64,000 nt of DNA from Flavobacteriales bacterium (GTDB lineage: Bacteria; Bacteroidota; Bacteroidia; Flavobacteriales_F; PHOS-HE28), in contig CP129489.1 of assembly GCA_030584065.1 (NCBI GenBank), positions 3,267,497-3,331,496 on the forward strand. The letters run 5' to 3'. Shown here one piece after another: positions 6,315-62,258 of this stretch (position 1 is its first letter; every line of letters starts with the position of its first letter). The position numbers and the translations under genes are program-made. Below the pieces are notes generated by a model, which was given only the letters and a program-made list of their open reading frames with translations, ran no database searches and was not told the origin of the DNA.

Positions 6315-6337
6315 GGCGGTGGCGTGGATCACGGGCC

Positions 6338-7222
6338 TCAGTGCCGCTCCGCGCCGTGCCCTGCGGCGGATGGCGGGAGGGGCGGACAGAGGGGCGGGCA
6401 CGGCGCGCCCTTGCCCAGCGCCTTGTGGCGGTAGGGCGCTGCGGGATGCAGGCTATCGCTGAGGGGCACGCCCACGGGCACCCAGGCGATGCCGGGCAGC
6501 AGGTCGGAAGTGGCGTCGCCGCCAGCTTTCGGCCCGGCATCGTGCACCGCGATGGGCACCAGCGCCAGCCTTCCTTCGGCCAGCGCGTTGTCCGCGATCA
6601 GCGCGCGCAGCGCTTCCTCGGGGAACACGGCCGGGTGCGGTGCGGTGCCGACGGGCCGCCATGCGCTGTCGGCGATCACCGGGCGCAGCAGCAGGCGGCT
6701 GCGGTAGCGGTGGCCGGGGCCGCCAGGAGCGTACCAGGCCGTGAGGCCCCCGGAATCGGGGTGCAGGCGGCCGTCGGCGCCGATGCGCAGGCAGTGGTCG
6801 GGCCCGGCGGGGCACAGCGGCTGCAGCCGCACGGTGTAGGCGCCGGCGCTGTCCAGCCCATGGTGCACGGCCATGGCGCGGGGCGCGGCATCGGGGCAGC
6901 GGTCCCAGGCGGCCAGCAGGTCCGCGGCCAGCACGGCGAAGCCGCCGCTGGGCACAGCGATGGGGCGCGGGTCGGCGGGCAGGCCATGGCCCACGTGCTG
7001 CGCGAAGCGCGCCGTGGCGCGGATGAGCCCGCTGCGCGAGAGCCCCTGCCCATCGTAGAGGGCGGGGAGTGCGGCCTTGAGCGCCGAATCGAGCTGCGGC
7101 AGCCCCAGGGCATGCGGTGATTCATGCATCGCACCGTCGGCGCCGCACGAGGCCAGCGCGATCAGCGCGGCGGCGCTGAGGCCGAAGGCCCAGCAGGCGG
7201 GGATGCGGATCGCGGCGGCCAT
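6338..7222 (-). CDS. Lipoprotein, copy B of the paralogous pair
   Basis: 294 residues. A long N-terminal hydrophobic segment ends in lipobox LASC (Cys26). The body shares order and motifs with the 293-residue lipoprotein at 9441-10322: VHHGL versus VHYGL, a YRSRLLLRPVI segment versus IRIRRTI, ALRALIADN versus LDRLVAEN, and a C-terminal CPPLCPP versus CPPRCR. It is predicted to be a lipid-anchored envelope protein. It lies between the LuxR regulator (74 bp upstream) and 7TM copy B (23 bp downstream). Family not recognised. Confidence 0.65.
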   Translation of the reverse strand: MAAAIRIPACWAFGLSAAALIALASCGADGAMHESPHALGLPQLDSALKAALPALYDGQGLSRSGLIRATARFAQHVGHGLPADPRPIAVPSGGFAVLAADLLAAWDRCPDAAPRAMAVHHGLDSAGAYTVRLQPLCPAGPDHCLRIGADGRLHPDSGGLTAWYAPGGPGHRYRSRLLLRPVIADSAWRPVGTAPHPAVFPEEALRALIADNALAEGRLALVPIAVHDAGPKAGGDATSDLLPGIAWVPVGVPLSDSLHPAAPYRHKALGKGAPCPPLCPPLPPSAAGHGAERH

Positions 7223-7285
7223 GGTTCAAGGGCCGAAGCAAGGCCCCCGGCACCGCCGCGAACAGCGTTGTTTTCACAGCCGGGC

Positions 7286-7303
7286 CCTGTGAATTTTCAC
7301 AGG
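7286..7303. terminator. Perfect 8-bp hairpin at the regulator stop codon
   Basis: CCTGTGAA-TT-TTCACAGG overlaps the stop codon of the LuxR regulator. A second TTTTCACAG lies 12 bp further downstream (7271-7279). It may attenuate or process the operon transcript between the regulator and the copy B genes, or be an operator; the sequence alone does not decide. Confidence 0.3.
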
Positions 7304-7977
7304 TGCCGCCCGTCGCCGTTGCCGAGCAGGCCCCAGCGGAGCGCGAAGAGCACCAGCCCGGTCTTGCTCTTGATGCTGAACTTCTCGAACAGCCCGATGC
7401 GGAAGTTGTCCACCGTGCGCCGGTGCACGCCCATGCGCTCGGCCATCTGCTCGTAGGTGTACTCGGCCTCGTCGCACACCAGCTGCAGGAATTCCATCTC
7501 GCGCGGGGTGATCTGCGCCAGCACGCGTTCGCGCTCGCGCTCGGCGCGCGTCTTCATGTCAGGGTGCCGCTGCAGCGCCCCGCTCAGGTCGTCGGAGTAG
7601 TAGTAGCCGGTCTGCGCCAGGCTGTCGAGCGCGCGCTTGAGCACCTCGGGCCGCGCGTTCTTCAGCAGGAAGCCGCGCGCGCCGGCGCGCACGGCGCGCA
7701 CCATGGCGTCCTCGGCGGCATCGAAGGTGAGGGCGAGCGGCAGCACCTGCGGGGCGTTGGCGCGCAGCCAGGCGATGGTCTCGAAGCCGTCCATCACGGG
7801 CATGTTGAGGTCCACGATGGCGATGCGGGGCTCGGCGCCGCGCTCCAGCTCGGCGATGAGCTCGCGGCCGTTGGCGGCCTCCACGCGCACGGCATAGCCG
7901 CCCAGCGCGTTCACGGTGGCGGCCAGCCCGCTGCGTACCAGGTGGTGGTCATCCACCAGGGCGATCGGGAGTTCCAT
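7297..7977 (-). CDS. LuxR-type response regulator
   Basis: 226 residues. N-terminal receiver with the acidic pocket VDDHH (Asp9/Asp10), phosphoacceptor Asp56 in IAIVDLNMPVMDG and the LLKN lysine; C-terminal LuxR/GerE helix-turn-helix (ITPREMEFLQL ... MGVHRRTVDNF). The family binds DNA as a dimer after phosphotransfer from a HisKA_3 kinase. The gene overlaps the end of the kinase gene by 29 nt, implying coupled translation and cognate pairing. ATG 7977 fits the usual N-terminus of the receiver. The target is unknown; autoregulation of the operon is possible. Confidence 0.9.
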   Translation of the reverse strand: MELPIALVDDHHLVRSGLAATVNALGGYAVRVEAANGRELIAELERGAEPRIAIVDLNMPVMDGFETIAWLRANAPQVLPLALTFDAAEDAMVRAVRAGARGFLLKNARPEVLKRALDSLAQTGYYYSDDLSGALQRHPDMKTRAERERERVLAQITPREMEFLQLVCDEAEYTYEQMAERMGVHRRTVDNFRIGLFEKFSIKSKTGLVLFALRWGLLGNGDGRHL

Positions 7978-55668: not shown

Positions 55669-56754
55669 TCATTGCTTCACCAGGCGCTGCTGCGCCACCC
55701 GCCGGCCATCGCGCAGCTCCAGCACATAGGTGCCGGGCGCAACGTGCTGCAGGGGGATGGTGCCGCGCGCGCCCATCACGCGCCCTTCCTGCACCACGCG
55801 CCCTTCGGCGGACATCAACCGGTAGCGCTTCTCGCCCTCGCCGGGCATCGCTACCTCCACGCGGTCAGTGGCAGGGTTCGGGTGCATGGTGAAGGTGGCC
55901 GCAGCGGCCGGCTGGTGCACGCCGGTGCCGAGCAGCTCCTCCTCGACCCACACTGCGCGGTCCATGGTGCCGTTATTGTCCTCGTCGAAGAGCCGCACTA
56001 CGGGGATGTCGTGCGGCGGCGTCCACCACAACCAGCTGGGCTTCGTGCTCGTGGTCACATCCACCCCCAGCATCCAGAGGCCCTGGTCGGCGCGGTAGAA
56101 GTCCATGGAGTCCGTCACGTTCTCCACGAGGACCTGCTTCACCGCATCGAAAGCGCCGAGCGGCGTGGTCACCGTACCCCAGCCGCCCACCTAGCTCTGG
56201 TAGGCGATGCGCGTGCGCACGCGCATCGAGTCCACGGTGAAGCCGAGCCCCAGGTCGAGCCCGATGTAGTGCGTCACCTGCGAACGGGATACCCCCGAGT
56301 GGACCTGGTTGTACTGCGCCGGCAGGTTCAGCAGCACCATGGGCGGGTCGAGGGCCACGGGCACCTGCACGCCATTCTCCTGGAATATGCGCCCATGGCC
56401 CAGCAGCTGCGTTGGACTCACCGAGATGTACTCCGCCGATGCATCGGTGTCCTCCACCGCCGCCCGGTCGCCCGGGAGCTGGATGCCGAACGGGCTTTCC
56501 CCGGCCTCCATCACTTCCATGCTGCTGGAGTTGTCGGCCTGCAGGCCCGTGAAGGACCAGGACAGCGCTGTGCCATTGCTGCCAGGTGTGACGGCCGGTG
56601 CCTCGTCGGTGGCCAGCTGGTAGCGCGACCCGATGGCGAAGAGCCCGTTGGCGGTGATGACGGCCTGGGCCGATGCCGTGGTGGCCGAGGCGAGCGCGAG
56701 CAAGCCTGCGGCGCCAATGGTATTGCGTGCATTCATGGCGAGTGTCGTTTTCAT
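55669..56754 (-). pseudogene. T9SS protein gene interrupted by an amber codon
   Basis: One continuous frame of 361 codons interrupted only by TAG at 56191-56193 (...RIAYQS-stop-VGGWGTVTTPLGAFDAVKQV). The first part has a signal peptide (SATTASAQ) and a beta domain; the second part continues it and ends in a T9SS type A sorting domain (MHPNPATDRVEVAMPG ... VAPGTYVLEL). Other genes here end in TAG, so recoding is unlikely: nonsense mutation or sequence error. Start ATG 56754 is set by a CTCTTTCG box 4 nt upstream. It carries a LytTR-like repeat pair upstream. Confidence 0.7.
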
Positions 56755-56758
56755 ACCG

Positions 56759-56830
56759 CGAAAGAGGCGCGCGCCGGGCCGTCGAGCGGCATCGGATGGC
56801 ATGAGCCGGAAAACCTGGCGCATGAACCGG
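56759..56830 (-). promoter_or_regulatory. LytTR-type direct repeats and -7 box, site A
   Basis: On the minus strand CCGGTTCATGC, 10 nt, CCGGCTCATGC (56830-56799), 32 nt, then CTCTTTCG (56766-56759), which ends 4 nt before the ATG at 56754. Directly after the second repeat is a GATGC/GCATC-like inverted repeat. The 21-bp period places both half-sites on one face of the helix. Confidence 0.7.
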
Positions 56831-56847
56831 ATGCAGCCGTCGGATGG

Positions 56848-59316
56848 TCACTGCACGATGAGCCGCCGCTCCGCGGTGCCGCTGGCATGCACCACGCGCA
56901 CCACGTAGGCCCCCGGTGCGCAGCCGGAAACATCCAGCACGCGCCGGTGCTCCAGCGAGCGCTCGCTGCGGATCACGCGTCCCTGCGCATCGATCAGCTC
57001 GATGACCACCTGGCCCTGGACCGCCACGCGCACCTGCACGAGGTCGTGCGCGGGATTCGGGAAGAGGCTCAGGATATCGTCAGCCGATGACAGGCCATCA
57101 TCGATGCCGGTGGCGAGGTCGCGGACCCACAGCCCATCAGTTCGGGCCGAATGGAGCCTTCCGTTATGCACTGCGATCGCGTAGCAGGTGCCCAGCGCTT
57201 CCACCAACTGCCACGTGGCTCCCTCGTCGTCCGACCGGTACAGGCGCGAGATGACCGTGGTCCGCAGCGCGTAGAGCCCTTCTCCCGTGGGCAGGAAGCG
57301 AACGGTGCCGCCGCCGGGCAGGCCGGTGCTCGACCAGGTCCACGTGTCGCCACCATCCGCACTGCGATAGATCCCGTAGGTGCCACCGGCAAGAAGCTCA
57401 CCGCCTATGCTCTGTATATCAGTGATGGAATGCGGGTCCCAATCCACCGGCGCCACCAGCTTCGGCTCGAACTGGGTCGCGCCGGGCGTGGTCCGCCACA
57501 GGTATCCGTTGCCACCTGCGCCGGCCCAGAGCGTGTCGCCGATCACGCGGAGCACGGCTACGTTGCCCGCGTTCATCCCATCCAGACCGCCGAAGGGCGC
57601 CCAGGTGGCTCCAGACCGCCTGAAGACACCCGCGCCCACGGTGGCGCACCACAGATCGTTGTCGAAGTTGGCCACGTCCGCGATGGATAGGCTGCCCAGA
57701 CCCGTAAGGCCTTGGGAGAAGTGCTGCCACGTGATGCCGTCGGTGGGGCTCACGAAGAGGCCGTTGCCCCCCGTGCCGGCGAAGAGCATGGTGCCATCGT
57801 GGTAGAGCGCATCCACGAAGAAGCCCGGCTGGGGAAGGGTGGCGCCCCGCTGCCAATCCAAGCCATCGGCGCTGCGCCACACGGTGGAGTCGGTTCCGGC
57901 ATACAGCGCACCTTGATGCGCCAGCAAGGACGGCGTATTGGCCGCCGGAAGGTCTTCGATACGTTCCCATTGAGCGGAGCCGGGCAGGGTCATGCCTGCG
58001 AGGGCAGTGACGAAGGCGATCCGCGAGACGGATCTCTGAACCTCCACGGTGCCGCGTTCGGGCCGGGTCTTCATGCCCCAGAGCAGGAAGGCGGGTTCGC
58101 TGCCGCCAGGCGTAGTGCCGCATTGCTGCGTCTCGAACCGGTCGCGCACCACATGCTGGAAGCGCTCGCTGATGAGGATGCAGCCTGCGGGTGCCGCATC
58201 GCGCAGCTTGACGGCGCCTTCCACGCCGGGGCCGATCACATCGAACACGGGCATCACCTTACCCAGGGCGGTCCGAGCGGATAGGTCTTGGGCGATGCCG
58301 ATGCGCAGCGACAGGGTAGCGCCTTCCGGGAGAGCGGTCTCCTCCGCAACATGCAGCATGGCCAAGGCCAGTTCGGCGAGGTGGTCCGCGCCGCCGGTGC
58401 CGATGCGCGCCGCGGTGCCGATGGCCATGAACTCGCCTCCGGAGAGGCGCGCACGCTCCAGTCCGCGGCGTTGGGCCAGCGTGTCGAAACGGACAATCAG
58501 GTCATGCAGCAGGGCGATGCGCTCATGCAGGGGCCAGGGATGCGACTGCTCGATGTCGACACAGGCGCTCAGCACGTTCATGGTCTCCGGCCGCTCGGCC
58601 ACGAGTCCCGGATGCTCACGCCAGCGCCGGCCGAGATCCTCGGGCAGGGCGCTCATGCGGTGATCGGGGCGCATGCGCTTGGCGCGCTGCACGGAGCGGC
58701 TGCGGAACAAGGTCCACAGGTTGGCCTCCAGCACCACCGCAGCCAGGGCCGCTCCCAGCGTGGCCATGCCGATGAGGAAGGTGCATGCGATGGCGGATTC
58801 GAGCTCCTGCCGGGCGCTGGACCAGAGCCGGACGAGGTAGATGCCGTTGTACACGACCATCACCGGCAATGCGTAGTGCACGCGCAGCCGCAAGGCGAGC
58901 ACGGCATGGAAGGTGATCATCACCAGGCCCACCAGCATGGTGAGCGCGGGCTCCGGTAACAGCGGCGCCACCGCGAACACCATGAGACCCGACGAGAGGT
59001 TGCACAGTGCGGCGAGCCATTGGTAGTGCCCGCGGAACTTGCGATTGCCCAAGGCCGCGCCCACGGCGAGGTAGAAGGGCAGCACGATGCCCAGGCTCTG
59101 TGACAGTTCATCGGCGTTCCACTGACGCAGGGCGAGGCCGAGGATACCCGCCAAGGCCCAGAGGAGCGCTCCGGAGTACATGCCCCAGCGCATGGCCATA
59201 TGGTTCACGCGGTCGTGGAAGCGGTCGAACGCACGGCGCATGCGCGAATCGGCCGAGAGGGGGAGCGCGCTGAGCCAGCGCGTTGCACGGGACGGGAGGA
59301 GATCGAGCGTTCTCAT
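56848..59316 (-). CDS. Membrane cyclase-like domain fused to a T9SS propeller
   Basis: 822 residues. Six TM helices (about 47-197) and a class III nucleotide-cyclase-like domain (about 247-415: LSACVDIEQ, SGGEFMAIG, ILISERFQHVVRDRF, FLLWG). One metal Asp is present (Asp254) but the GD motif reads GG, so activity is doubtful. Then a full signal-peptide-like segment (RIAFVTALAGMTLPGSAQ, about 432-449), a BNR-like propeller (YGIYRSADGGDTWTWSSTG) and a T9SS type A domain (LFPNPAHDLVQV ... CAPGAYVVRV). This looks like two genes joined in frame; Met at 58074 could start the second. ATG 59316 is set by a TCCCTTCG box. Confidence 0.7.
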   Translation of the reverse strand: MRTLDLLPSRATRWLSALPLSADSRMRRAFDRFHDRVNHMAMRWGMYSGALLWALAGILGLALRQWNADELSQSLGIVLPFYLAVGAALGNRKFRGHYQWLAALCNLSSGLMVFAVAPLLPEPALTMLVGLVMITFHAVLALRLRVHYALPVMVVYNGIYLVRLWSSARQELESAIACTFLIGMATLGAALAAVVLEANLWTLFRSRSVQRAKRMRPDHRMSALPEDLGRRWREHPGLVAERPETMNVLSACVDIEQSHPWPLHERIALLHDLIVRFDTLAQRRGLERARLSGGEFMAIGTAARIGTGGADHLAELALAMLHVAEETALPEGATLSLRIGIAQDLSARTALGKVMPVFDVIGPGVEGAVKLRDAAPAGCILISERFQHVVRDRFETQQCGTTPGGSEPAFLLWGMKTRPERGTVEVQRSVSRIAFVTALAGMTLPGSAQWERIEDLPAANTPSLLAHQGALYAGTDSTVWRSADGLDWQRGATLPQPGFFVDALYHDGTMLFAGTGGNGLFVSPTDGITWQHFSQGLTGLGSLSIADVANFDNDLWCATVGAGVFRRSGATWAPFGGLDGMNAGNVAVLRVIGDTLWAGAGGNGYLWRTTPGATQFEPKLVAPVDWDPHSITDIQSIGGELLAGGTYGIYRSADGGDTWTWSSTGLPGGGTVRFLPTGEGLYALRTTVISRLYRSDDEGATWQLVEALGTCYAIAVHNGRLHSARTDGLWVRDLATGIDDGLSSADDILSLFPNPAHDLVQVRVAVQGQVVIELIDAQGRVIRSERSLEHRRVLDVSGCAPGAYVVRVVHASGTAERRLIVQ

Positions 59317-59320
59317 GCGG

Positions 59321-59392
59321 CGAAGGGAGCCCACCACGGCGCCTTCGGCATCATGCGATGGCATGAGTGGGCACGATTGCGGCATGAACCGG
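59321..59392 (-). promoter_or_regulatory. LytTR-type direct repeats and -7 box, site B
   Basis: On the minus strand CCGGTTCATGC, 10 nt, CCCACTCATGC (59392-59361), 32 nt, then TCCCTTCG (59328-59321), which ends 4 nt before the ATG at 59316. Same spacing to the base as sites A and C. Confidence 0.7.
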
Positions 59393-59494
59393 ACCGGGGC
59401 TCGATCCTCCTGTTTCCTCATGAGCGACGGTGAGCCGTCGCAGCTCCATGTCCGTCACTTGCCGGGCACCTGGCGATGAGCAGTTCAGTGCGTC

Positions 59495-59713
59495 GTGCAC
59501 CGCGCGATCCACCGAACTGACGTGGCTCTCTTGACTCCTGTGGGCAGCACCATCGATGCCGACCCGGAGCGCGCAAAGGTTTGGGCGGATGAATGGATCG
59601 TGGGTCCCTTCGACCTGTCGGGCGCGACCAAGCATCTCGACGTGGCCGCCTACCGGCATCCGCAAGTGCGGACCATCGCCACGATCCCCCTCACCGGTCC
59701 AGCCAGGCCTTGA
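59495..59713 (+). CDS. Possible small protein or gene remnant
   Basis: 72 codons from GTG. Codon use (mostly G/C in third position) looks like coding sequence, for example TIDADPERAKVWADEWIVGP. No promoter-like box at the usual distance, no family recognised, and its 3' end overlaps the LytTR gene on the other strand by 23 nt. A decayed gene end is as likely as a real gene. Confidence 0.25.
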   Translation: MHRAIHRTDVALLTPVGSTIDADPERAKVWADEWIVGPFDLSGATKHLDVAAYRHPQVRTIATIPLTGPARP

Positions 59714-60440
59714 ACTCGGCCGAGCGCTCCACGCTCACGATGCTCTCGATGTCGGTGGCTGGGTGCAGCACCACCTTCACGCGGCTCTTGCTGTAGGGCA
59801 CCATGCTCTTGATGGCGCCGAAGCTCACAATGAGCTGGCGGTTGATGCGGAAGAAATGGCGCGGGTCGAGCTCCGACTGGATCTTGTCCATGGTGCCGTC
59901 CACGATGTAGCGGTGGTTGTCGGTGCTCACCAGCTTCACGTAGCGGCCCTCGCTCTGGAAGTAGGCCGCCTGCTCCACGGGCACCGAGCGGATCTGCCCG
60001 CCGCTGGCCACCATGAAGCGCTCGCGGTAGGCCGGTTGCCGGAGCGCGCTCAGCTCACGGAGCACGCCTGGGTCGATGCCGAAGCGGCGCTTCAGCCGGT
60101 CCACCTTCCCCAGGGCCTGCTGGATCGCCTCCAGCGAGATGGGCTTCAGCAGGTATTCGATGCCATTGGCCTGGAAGGCCTGGATGGCATACTTGTCGTA
60201 GGCCGTGGTGAAGATCACAGGCGCTTCCACCGCCGTGCGCTGGAAGATGGTGAAGCACAGGTCATCGCCCAGGTGGATGTCCATGAAGATGAGGTCGGGC
60301 CGCAGGGCCGCGATGCCCTGGACGGCGTCCTCCACGTTGTCGGCCATGCCCACAACGCGAAGGGCGGGGTCGGCCTGTTCCAGCAGGCGCACCAGCCCTT
60401 GTGCGGCGGGCGCCTCGTCCTCGACGATGTAGGCGGTCAT
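59691..60440 (-). CDS. LytTR-family response regulator, likely controls sites A-C
   Basis: 249 residues. Receiver with VEDEAP (Glu7/Asp8), phosphoacceptor Asp54 in LIFMDIHLGDD, TTAYDKY and LLKPIS (Lys); LytTR DNA-binding domain (about 140-249: FMVASGGQIRSVPVEQAAYFQSE, HFFRINRQLIVSFGAIKSMV). It is coupled to the kinase gene by a 4-nt ATGA overlap. LytTR proteins bind paired direct repeats about 21 bp apart upstream of the promoter, which is exactly what lies upstream of this operon and of two neighbours. Confidence 0.9.
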   Translation of the reverse strand: MTAYIVEDEAPAAQGLVRLLEQADPALRVVGMADNVEDAVQGIAALRPDLIFMDIHLGDDLCFTIFQRTAVEAPVIFTTAYDKYAIQAFQANGIEYLLKPISLEAIQQALGKVDRLKRRFGIDPGVLRELSALRQPAYRERFMVASGGQIRSVPVEQAAYFQSEGRYVKLVSTDNHRYIVDGTMDKIQSELDPRHFFRINRQLIVSFGAIKSMVPYSKSRVKVVLHPATDIESIVSVERSAEFKAWLDR

Positions 60441-62182
60441 GGTTCCTGGGAAAGGATGGGTACGGATGCGGTGTAGTGTGTGTCGGTGAGAGTGAAAGCG
60501 GGCTCCTCGGCGCCGAGCATGGCGTAGCGCCGACGGATGTTCTCCAGGCCCGTGCCCGTGCCGGCCTCGCTTGTGCCTCGGGGACGCAGGTCGTTGCGTA
60601 CCACCAGGCGATCGCCGTCAACGCCCACGGTGATGCGCAGGGGCTTGGCGGCGCTGATCGCATTGTGCTTGATGGCGTTCTCCAGCAGCATCTGCAGGGT
60701 GAAGGGGGGGAGGTAGCCCTTGAGCGCATGCGCCGGCAGGTCGAGCGCCACCTGCAGGCTGTCGCCGAAGCGCATGCGCTGCAGGAAGAGGTAGTGGCGC
60801 ACCAGGTCGAGCTCCTCCTCCACGGGCACGATGGTGCGCTCGCGCGAGGTGAGCACCTTTCGGTAGAGCGCGCTGAAGCTGGCGATGAACTCGCGCGCCT
60901 TCGCGGGCTCGGTCTCCACCAGGGTGTACAGCGTGTTCATGGCGTTGAAGAGGAAGTGCGGGTCGATCTGGCTCTTGAGCGTCTCGAAACGGGCCATGAG
61001 GCTCTCCTGGAGGAGGAGCTCGTTCTCCTCCTGCAGCCGCTCCTTGTCGCGCTCCAGGCGCTGCGCGGCCTCGCGCTTCATGCGGTACTGGCGGCGGAAG
61101 GAGACGATGAGCACGACGGCCAGCGCGCTGATGATGGCCAGCGCGCCCCACGCGATGCGCGACCGCTGCGCGCGCAGGGCGTTCACCTCGGCCTCTGTGC
61201 GGGTGAGGGCGAGCTCCTTCTCCATGCGGCCGAGCGCGAAGCGGGCCTGGGCCTCGGCCACGGCGCGCTCGCGGAACACGCCGCTGAGCGAGTCCTTCAC
61301 CGCCAGCAGCGCGTTGGCCGTGTTCAGGGCCCGGGCACTGTCCTTCATGGCCAGGTGGTATTCCACGCGGCTCCCCAGCACCGTGGCCAACAGGTCGCCG
61401 GCGCCGTGGGTGCGTGCGATGCGCTCCGCCTCATCGAGCCGTGCAGGCACTTCCTCCAGCCGGCCCTGCTCGAAGTAGAGGTATGCCAGCGATTCGTTGA
61501 CGCGGGCCTCCAGATGGGGATACCCGCCGCCCGGCACCACCGCCAGGGCCCGTCGGAAGGCGGCCTCGCTCTCGCCCGGCCGACCCAGCGCCCCGAAGGT
61601 GACGCCCATGTTGAAGTGCAGATCGGCCATCACGAAGCTGTCCTGCGCCGCAGCGGCCAGCGGCAGCCCCACCCGGCACCAATACAGTGCGCTGTCGCCC
61701 TGCCCGCGGTAGTCGCTGAGCGCGGCCATCACCAGCGGCAGGCGATAGCTGCGGCCCACGGGCTGCTCCTCGTTCAGCCGCAGCGCTTCGCGGAGGATCG
61801 GCTCCGCTTGGGCCAGGTCGTCGAGGTCCATGTGGATGGCGGCCATGCTCAGGAGCGCATCCACCCGGCCGGCGTGGTCGCTCAGGGAGTCGGCCAGCTC
61901 GTAGGCGCGCACCTGCGCGGCCATGGCCTCATCGAACCGCCCGAGCAGCCGCAGGGCATGGCCCCGGTAGTGCACCATCTCCTTCCGCCACCAAGGGTCG
62001 TGTGCATGGGTGGGCGCCGCCAGCAGCGAGTCGGCCACGGCGAGCGCCGCCTCGGGCGGCTGCGTGCGCAGCATGCGCGAGAGCTGGCGGGTGCGCTCCT
62101 TCAGCGCCGCCGAGCGGCCCCGGCCACTGGCGAGCAACGGCGCCAGTGCGAGCAGCAGGAGCAGAAGGGGCCTTGCGGTCAT
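60437..62182 (-). CDS. TPR-containing LytS-type sensor kinase
   Basis: 581 residues. Signal peptide (about 1-19), TPR-like periplasmic repeats (about 70-300: HFNMGVTFGALGRPGESEAAF and similar), one TM helix (about 340-360), a coiled coil and the His_kinase domain with SQIDPHFLFNAMNTLY (His near 407), then HATPase (MLLENAIKHNAI, GTGTGLENIRRRY). The stimulus is probably a periplasmic protein or peptide sensed by the TPR part (inference). ATG 62182 is set by CAGCTTTG 4 nt upstream. First gene of the operon with the LytTR regulator. Confidence 0.9.
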   Translation of the reverse strand: MTARPLLLLLLALAPLLASGRGRSAALKERTRQLSRMLRTQPPEAALAVADSLLAAPTHAHDPWWRKEMVHYRGHALRLLGRFDEAMAAQVRAYELADSLSDHAGRVDALLSMAAIHMDLDDLAQAEPILREALRLNEEQPVGRSYRLPLVMAALSDYRGQGDSALYWCRVGLPLAAAAQDSFVMADLHFNMGVTFGALGRPGESEAAFRRALAVVPGGGYPHLEARVNESLAYLYFEQGRLEEVPARLDEAERIARTHGAGDLLATVLGSRVEYHLAMKDSARALNTANALLAVKDSLSGVFRERAVAEAQARFALGRMEKELALTRTEAEVNALRAQRSRIAWGALAIISALAVVLIVSFRRQYRMKREAAQRLERDKERLQEENELLLQESLMARFETLKSQIDPHFLFNAMNTLYTLVETEPAKAREFIASFSALYRKVLTSRERTIVPVEEELDLVRHYLFLQRMRFGDSLQVALDLPAHALKGYLPPFTLQMLLENAIKHNAISAAKPLRITVGVDGDRLVVRNDLRPRGTSEAGTGTGLENIRRRYAMLGAEEPAFTLTDTHYTASVPILSQEP

Positions 62183-62186
62183 CGTC

Positions 62187-62258
62187 CAAAGCTGATCATT
62201 GCCGGGGCTCAGCGCGCATCGCTGATGCATGAGCGGGAAGATCCGCGGCATGGGCCGG
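62187..62258 (-). promoter_or_regulatory. LytTR-type direct repeats and -7 box, site C
   Basis: On the minus strand CCGGCCCATGC, 10 nt, CCCGCTCATGC (62258-62227), 32 nt, then CAGCTTTG (62194-62187), which ends 4 nt before the ATG at 62182. It is followed by a GCATC-AGC-GATGC inverted repeat. It heads the kinase/LytTR operon, so autoregulation is likely. Confidence 0.7.

Follow-up and report, generated by a model that had tools for sequence, protein, structure and literature searches.

A probable autoregulated LytTR regulon with repeat pairs at a fixed distance from the -7 box in a Flavobacteriales genome

LytTR proteins bind two 9-bp repeats lying 10-13 bp apart and mostly activate transcription from upstream of the -35 element (PMC11347149, PMC2714321). 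The PlnC/PlnD system of Lactobacillus plantarum is an autoregulated LytTR operon with two 9-bp direct repeats separated by a 12-bp spacer (21-bp period) upstream of the promoter, and the repeats of its regulon are bound cooperatively (PMC2714321). The locus described here shares this repeat layout and would share the autoregulation and the cooperative binding, while PlnC/PlnD differs in its -35/-10 promoters, its bacteriocin targets, its use in quorum sensing and its repeat, TACGTTAAT (PMC2714321). Positive autoregulation is also found in the LytTR Regulatory Systems (LRS) HdrRM and BrsRM, whose repeats are 12 bp apart and usually lie 10 bp upstream of the -35 element; there the regulator is paired with an inhibitory membrane protein, not with a kinase (PMC6193735). 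Two LRS-like operons of Bacteroides carry, in order, the repeats, 11 bp, a 4-bp -33 element, 19 bp and TATCTTTG. This places the repeats 34 bp from the -7 box, essentially the geometry reported below, although the Bacteroides repeats have an 11-bp spacer and are predicted only (PMC6193735). BtsS/BtsR and YpdA/YpdB of E. coli likewise combine a LytS-type kinase, a LytTR regulator and a small regulon, but they are pyruvate-responsive, control transporters and use sigma-70 promoters (PMC5552118, PMC4847170). Lastly, PorX/PorY-SigP of Porphyromonas gingivalis is a two-component system tied to an ECF sigma factor and to type IX secretion (T9SS) (PMC4800418, PMC8265659).

The geometry of 21-bp repeats followed at about 33 bp by a -10/-7 element is already known. 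The additions made here are the proposed regulon, with an ECF sigma gene and T9SS genes among its targets, the spacing rule seen on pairs picked regardless of the box, and the link between that rule and starts that are probably leaderless. Few Bacteroidota LytTR regulons were found in the literature searched, with two predicted operons in PMC6193735.

The window, a 64,000-nucleotide stretch of a Flavobacteriales bacterium whose genome is a single contig of 3,918,270 bases, holds a minus-strand kinase-regulator operon. The first gene (60437..62182) encodes a LytS-type sensor kinase of 581 aa with a signal-peptide-like start, TPR repeats and a His_kinase domain (Pfam PF06580, E=2.5e-25). It overlaps by 4 bp the gene (59691..60440) of a 249-aa response regulator with a receiver (PF00072, E=3e-15) and a LytTR DNA-binding domain (PF04397, E=8e-18), the proposed binder of the repeats. 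Three minus-strand repeat pairs with a 21-bp period, reported in the initial annotation, were recovered at 56799-56830, 59361-59392 and 62227-62258. At site 1, the distal repeat CCGGTTCATGC (56820..56830) spans -76 to -66 and the proximal repeat CCGGCTCATGC (56799..56809) spans -55 to -45. Site 2 has the same distal repeat, CCGGTTCATGC (59382..59392), with CCCACTCATGC as the proximal copy (59361..59371). Site 3 precedes the kinase-regulator operon and consists of CCGGCCCATGC (62248..62258) and CCCGCTCATGC (62227..62237). The proposed consensus holds in general, with one mismatch in the distal repeat of site 3. Each pair can be written as a 9-bp core, CCSRYTCAT, repeated across a 12-bp spacer, and lies upstream of a candidate target promoter. 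The repeat of BtsR, ACC(G/A)CT(C/T)A with a 21-bp period, resembles CCSGYTCA.

These pairs are rare. Three were observed in the window against 0.08 in dinucleotide-shuffled windows (up to 3 mismatches), and with at most 1 mismatch sites 1-3 are the only pairs in the whole 3,918,270-bp genome. Relaxing the search to 3 mismatches yields 19 genome matches, against 6 with the reversed pattern. The occurrence of the pair is thus not random along the genome: beside the three clustered matches there is a fourth promoter, about 220 kb away, before an ECF sigma gene that adjoins an apparent mfd, with its box at +32. Two further matches were rejected as promoters. One, with 2 mismatches (G000:C1:3442325, L004), lacks a -7 box at +32 and also coincides with the beginning of the reading frame of another LytTR-linked kinase; the other, with 3 mismatches (C1:1286779), lies inside a coding frame resembling thiolase.

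In all three window promoters the distance from the repeats to the ATG is 44 bp, free of gaps, and an octamer occupies positions -12 to -5 from the A of the ATG, 32 bp from the repeats. These octamers are CTCTTTCG at site 1 (56759..56766), TCCCTTCG at site 2 (59321..59328) and CAGCTTTG at site 3 (62187..62194), all on the minus strand; the TTTG of the last is invariant in the kinase promoters of four species. The position given to the octamer in the initial annotation, 32 bp from the repeats and ending 4 nt before the ATG, is borne out in all three cases, while its consensus nnnCTTYG becomes nnnYTTYG to accommodate CTCTTTCG. The start codons at 56754 and 59316 are choices, as the reading frames of sites 1 and 2 extend upstream through the repeats (starts 56823 and 59421); promoter geometry backs both, and a signal-peptide-like start backs the first.

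The sigma-A box of Flavobacterium, TAnnTTTG, spans positions -12 to -5 relative to the transcription start (PMC6847099, PMC9723704). By comparison of sequence and position, the octamer is most probably this Bacteroidota -7 box and not a ribosome signal. The box stands 32 or 33 bp from the repeats, with the start codon 4 to about 37 nt downstream of it, both in three related genomes (G015, G018, G030) and before the ECF sigma genes of five species. In the same three genomes the repeats-to-ATG distance differs between promoters, from 44 to 77. Since the spacing is constant while the ATG distance varies, box and repeats form one unit that is independent of the start codon. When kinase and ECF promoters are aligned, what they have in common is limited to the repeats, the TTTG and a T-containing stretch ahead of the second repeat; the remainder has diverged. 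Every composite site has the TTYG half of TAnnTTTG. The window boxes mostly lack the TA half, which does occur in part of the class-B sites and in the out-of-genus sites described below. The window boxes would therefore be weak consensus matches in need of an activator. No TTG-like sequence stands at -36 to -33 in the three window promoters, where a TTTG -33 element was sought; this element is weak across flavobacteria (PMC6847099). With the octamer at -12 to -5 from its A, each window ATG would be +1, and the window mRNAs are probably leaderless. Against this reading, leaderless mRNAs are a minority in Flavobacterium, at 5.5% (PMC9723704).

The family is represented by 45 genomes, all of one genus. 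Repeats with at most 1 mismatch and a box occur in 5/5 genomes (four species) with this LytTR protein, against 1/39 without it. Assuming independent genomes, which these are not, the probability of such co-occurrence is 6/1,086,008 = 5.5e-6. Orthologs of the regulator in three other species are 87-89% identical, while those of the kinase are only 59-61% identical between species. In each of the four species that have this LytTR protein, the regulator operon has a site in front of it. The pair is thus present in orthologous promoters, and before the kinase-regulator operons of the three other species the box stands at 32-33 bp. From this co-occurrence and the match to the LytTR repeat type, we infer that the sites are read by this LytTR protein.

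A second repeat class, CCGYTYCRTCS, also with a 21-bp period, lies beside another, paralogous LytTR clade (group B). In a 44-genome search at least 42 class-B pairs were picked on the repeats alone (up to 1 mismatch). Among the matches listed, TTYG stands at offset 32 in 14 of 42 pairs and at 31 in two, and no offset other than 32 appears more than 2 times. In several of these promoters the ATG follows exactly 4 nt past the box. Class-B targets encode a conserved protein of about 70-95 residues, a CxxxxxCH lipoprotein (haem-site-like) or a beta-propeller protein. The small protein, found beside group-B LytTR genes, has the motif LNR..RYHN.LNA, and the lipoprotein, with KHEPP...NCTMGDGCHS, looks haem-binding; these two targets recur in L043, L045, L047, L054, L062, L065, L066, L120 and L125.

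Outside the genus, 105 LytTR loci were screened with the repeat filter C..[AG][TC]TC[AG] at a period of 21. Nineteen repeat pairs pass, and seven have a TAnnTTTG box within 90 bp; all seven boxes lie 33-34 bp from the 9-mer (six at 34, one at 33), equivalent to 31-32 from the 11-mer. Periods of 20 and 22 gave no boxes in these 105 loci. The seven sites, a small sample in which some members are closely related, come from Saprospiraceae, Lewinella and several Flavobacteriaceae and suggest that the spacing rule is wide in Bacteroidota. An unrestricted search of the 105 loci, open to every 9-mer that recurs with a 21-bp period close to TAnnTTTG, returned mainly coding and low-complexity repeats and became clean once the LytTR-type consensus was added. 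A class-wide search with one flavobacterial motif variant (ACARYTCAA repeats) gave mostly chance matches and no visible box enrichment. A tentative generalization, to which we give somewhat less than an even chance, is that LytTR promoters throughout Bacteroidota follow a single base-exact plan, in which two 9-bp repeats separated by a 12-bp spacer are followed after 33-34 bp by TAnnTTTG, and the repeat letters would encode the specificity of each LytTR clade. T9SS propeller proteins, cytochrome-like proteins and an ECF sigma factor might then be under the joint control of two such regulons in this genus, which would give type IX-secreted surface proteins a second regulatory input beside PorXY-SigP.

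Several other readings of these sites have to be weighed. Since longer reading frames at sites 1 and 2 could take in the repeats, repeats and octamer might be chance or coding-sequence repeats with no regulatory role. This is scarcely credible in view of their genome-wide rarity, the identical geometry, the peak in the offset histogram and the conservation in four species at varying start-codon distance. Hardly more probable is a role of the octamer in translation initiation in place of a promoter function. Its place exactly 4 nt before each window ATG would fit such a signal, but in the relatives it stays fixed to the repeats (32-33) while the ATG wanders from 4 to about 37 nt downstream. Moreover, the octamer resembles TAnnTTTG and not a Shine-Dalgarno sequence, and Bacteroidota mRNAs lack Shine-Dalgarno sequences (PMC6847099).

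The sign of control is not readable from sequence, and PlnD and CoxC are LytTR repressors (PMC2714321, PMC11347149), so the regulator could in principle bind upstream of its target promoters and repress them. We regard this as quite unlikely: the repeats reach no further than -45 and stay clear of the polymerase elements, unlike those of CoxC, the lack of a visible -33 element suggests the need of an activator, and the repeat position matches known activator sites. Somewhat less improbable, though still unlikely, is that the sites are LytTR operators whose reader is a different paralog, or several LytTR proteins whose specificities overlap. Three good CATGC-type promoter sites (C27, C35, C38; 1 mismatch each) persist in G012, and a site is kept before the ECF gene in G008 and G028, all in genomes without a close ortholog of this LytTR protein. 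Only LytTR paralogs of about 40% identity were found in these three assemblies, whose completeness is 97% (G012), 94% (G008) and 83% (G028). Nevertheless, all four species have a site in front of the operon that encodes this regulator, every genome with the regulator (5/5) has sites, and the paralogs of about 40% identity in group B adjoin the clearly different class CCGYTYCRTCS.

An autoregulated LytTR regulon, activated from repeat pairs through the -7 box, is the reading that we hold with considerable confidence. Activation by the LytTR protein is the most likely sign of control, given the lack of a visible -33 element and repeats that lie at -76 to -45, as known activator sites do, and the regulon is probably activated in this way. 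In this model, the LytS-type kinase would sense a signal through its TPR sensor and phosphorylate the LytTR regulator. Two regulator molecules would then sit side by side on the two 9-11-bp repeats, 21 bp apart on one DNA face at about -76 to -45, and recruit RNA polymerase carrying the Bacteroidota housekeeping sigma factor to the -7 box 32 bp downstream. Transcription would start at the window ATG (+1) and yield leaderless mRNAs. The predicted targets are the regulator's own kinase-regulator operon (positive feedback), two neighbouring T9SS-linked genes and the distant ECF sigma gene. Such an arrangement would show that LytTR regulators approach a distinct sigma factor and -7 box at about the distance used at sigma-70 promoters, and with a promoter plan this rigid and searchable, targets could be assigned from sequence to the LytTR paralogs of these genomes. 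The regulon with autoregulation proposed in the initial annotation is supported by the rarity of the sites and by their presence before orthologous operons; its octamer, its cyclase, its T9SS gene and its set of targets required correction.

Candidate targets in the source genome are the kinase-regulator operon, the 59316 and 56754 genes and the ECF sigma gene. In relatives, sites are found at a cytochrome c gene with a T9SS gene behind it, at further T9SS genes and at the genes for a cupin and the ECF sigma factor, and in one genome also at the gene for a TPR protein with a strong cyclase-domain match. Through its targets the proposed regulon would connect an ECF sigma factor and type IX-secreted proteins with a LytTR switch. 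PorX/PorY-SigP, by comparison, controls the T9SS machinery, while the predicted targets here are T9SS cargo and a different ECF sigma gene; PorX is, to our knowledge, not a LytTR protein. In G012, the site, the -7 box and the first ECF sigma codons remain beside mfd (L070 8730-8820), but the remainder of the gene is apparently lost or disrupted.

The 59316 gene (56848..59316, minus strand) encodes an 822-aa protein with a hydrophobic N-terminal part, a degenerate class III cyclase domain (PF00211, E=7e-14), a beta-propeller and a T9SS sorting tail (PF18962, E=1e-8). The propeller exists as a separate gene in L069; in G030 the separate propeller gene has its own weaker site and a box at +32. 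Given this separate gene, the 59316 protein appears to fuse a degenerate cyclase-like protein to a propeller. Aligned with the TPR-cyclase of L068, its cyclase domain has SGGEF in place of IGDSY and IGPGVEGAVK in place of WGDTVNTASR. The replaced residues are what we take to be the catalytic metal-binding Asp, Asn and Arg of the class III active site. The protein is likely not an active cyclase; with the residues expected to bind metal and nucleotide replaced, second-messenger synthesis is not to be assumed. The N-terminal part that accompanies the sorting tail is hydrophobic and membrane-like. Ahead of the propeller lies an internal stretch resembling a signal peptide, so the propeller may be made or released separately.

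The 56754 gene was annotated as a T9SS gene, and the sorting tail (PF18962) is indeed present, but the frame is interrupted. Its first part (56191..56754, minus strand) ends at an in-frame TAG (56191-56193), and the same frame continues after it (55669..56190, minus strand) to the tail. Homology to the L067/L068 proteins spans the TAG, and a second assembly of the species has the TAG too, with 100% identity over 1085 bp. As homology continues past the stop, the TAG parts signal peptide and sorting tail, and the gene may have decayed. Recoding of in-frame TAGs was considered and rejected, as TAG ends 24 of 82 long ORFs and is an ordinary stop. One in-frame TAG is likewise found, in both assemblies of the species, in another LytS-type kinase gene (L074 ~6334-7346; G000:C1:3442770-3443339) beside a 39% identical LytTR paralog.
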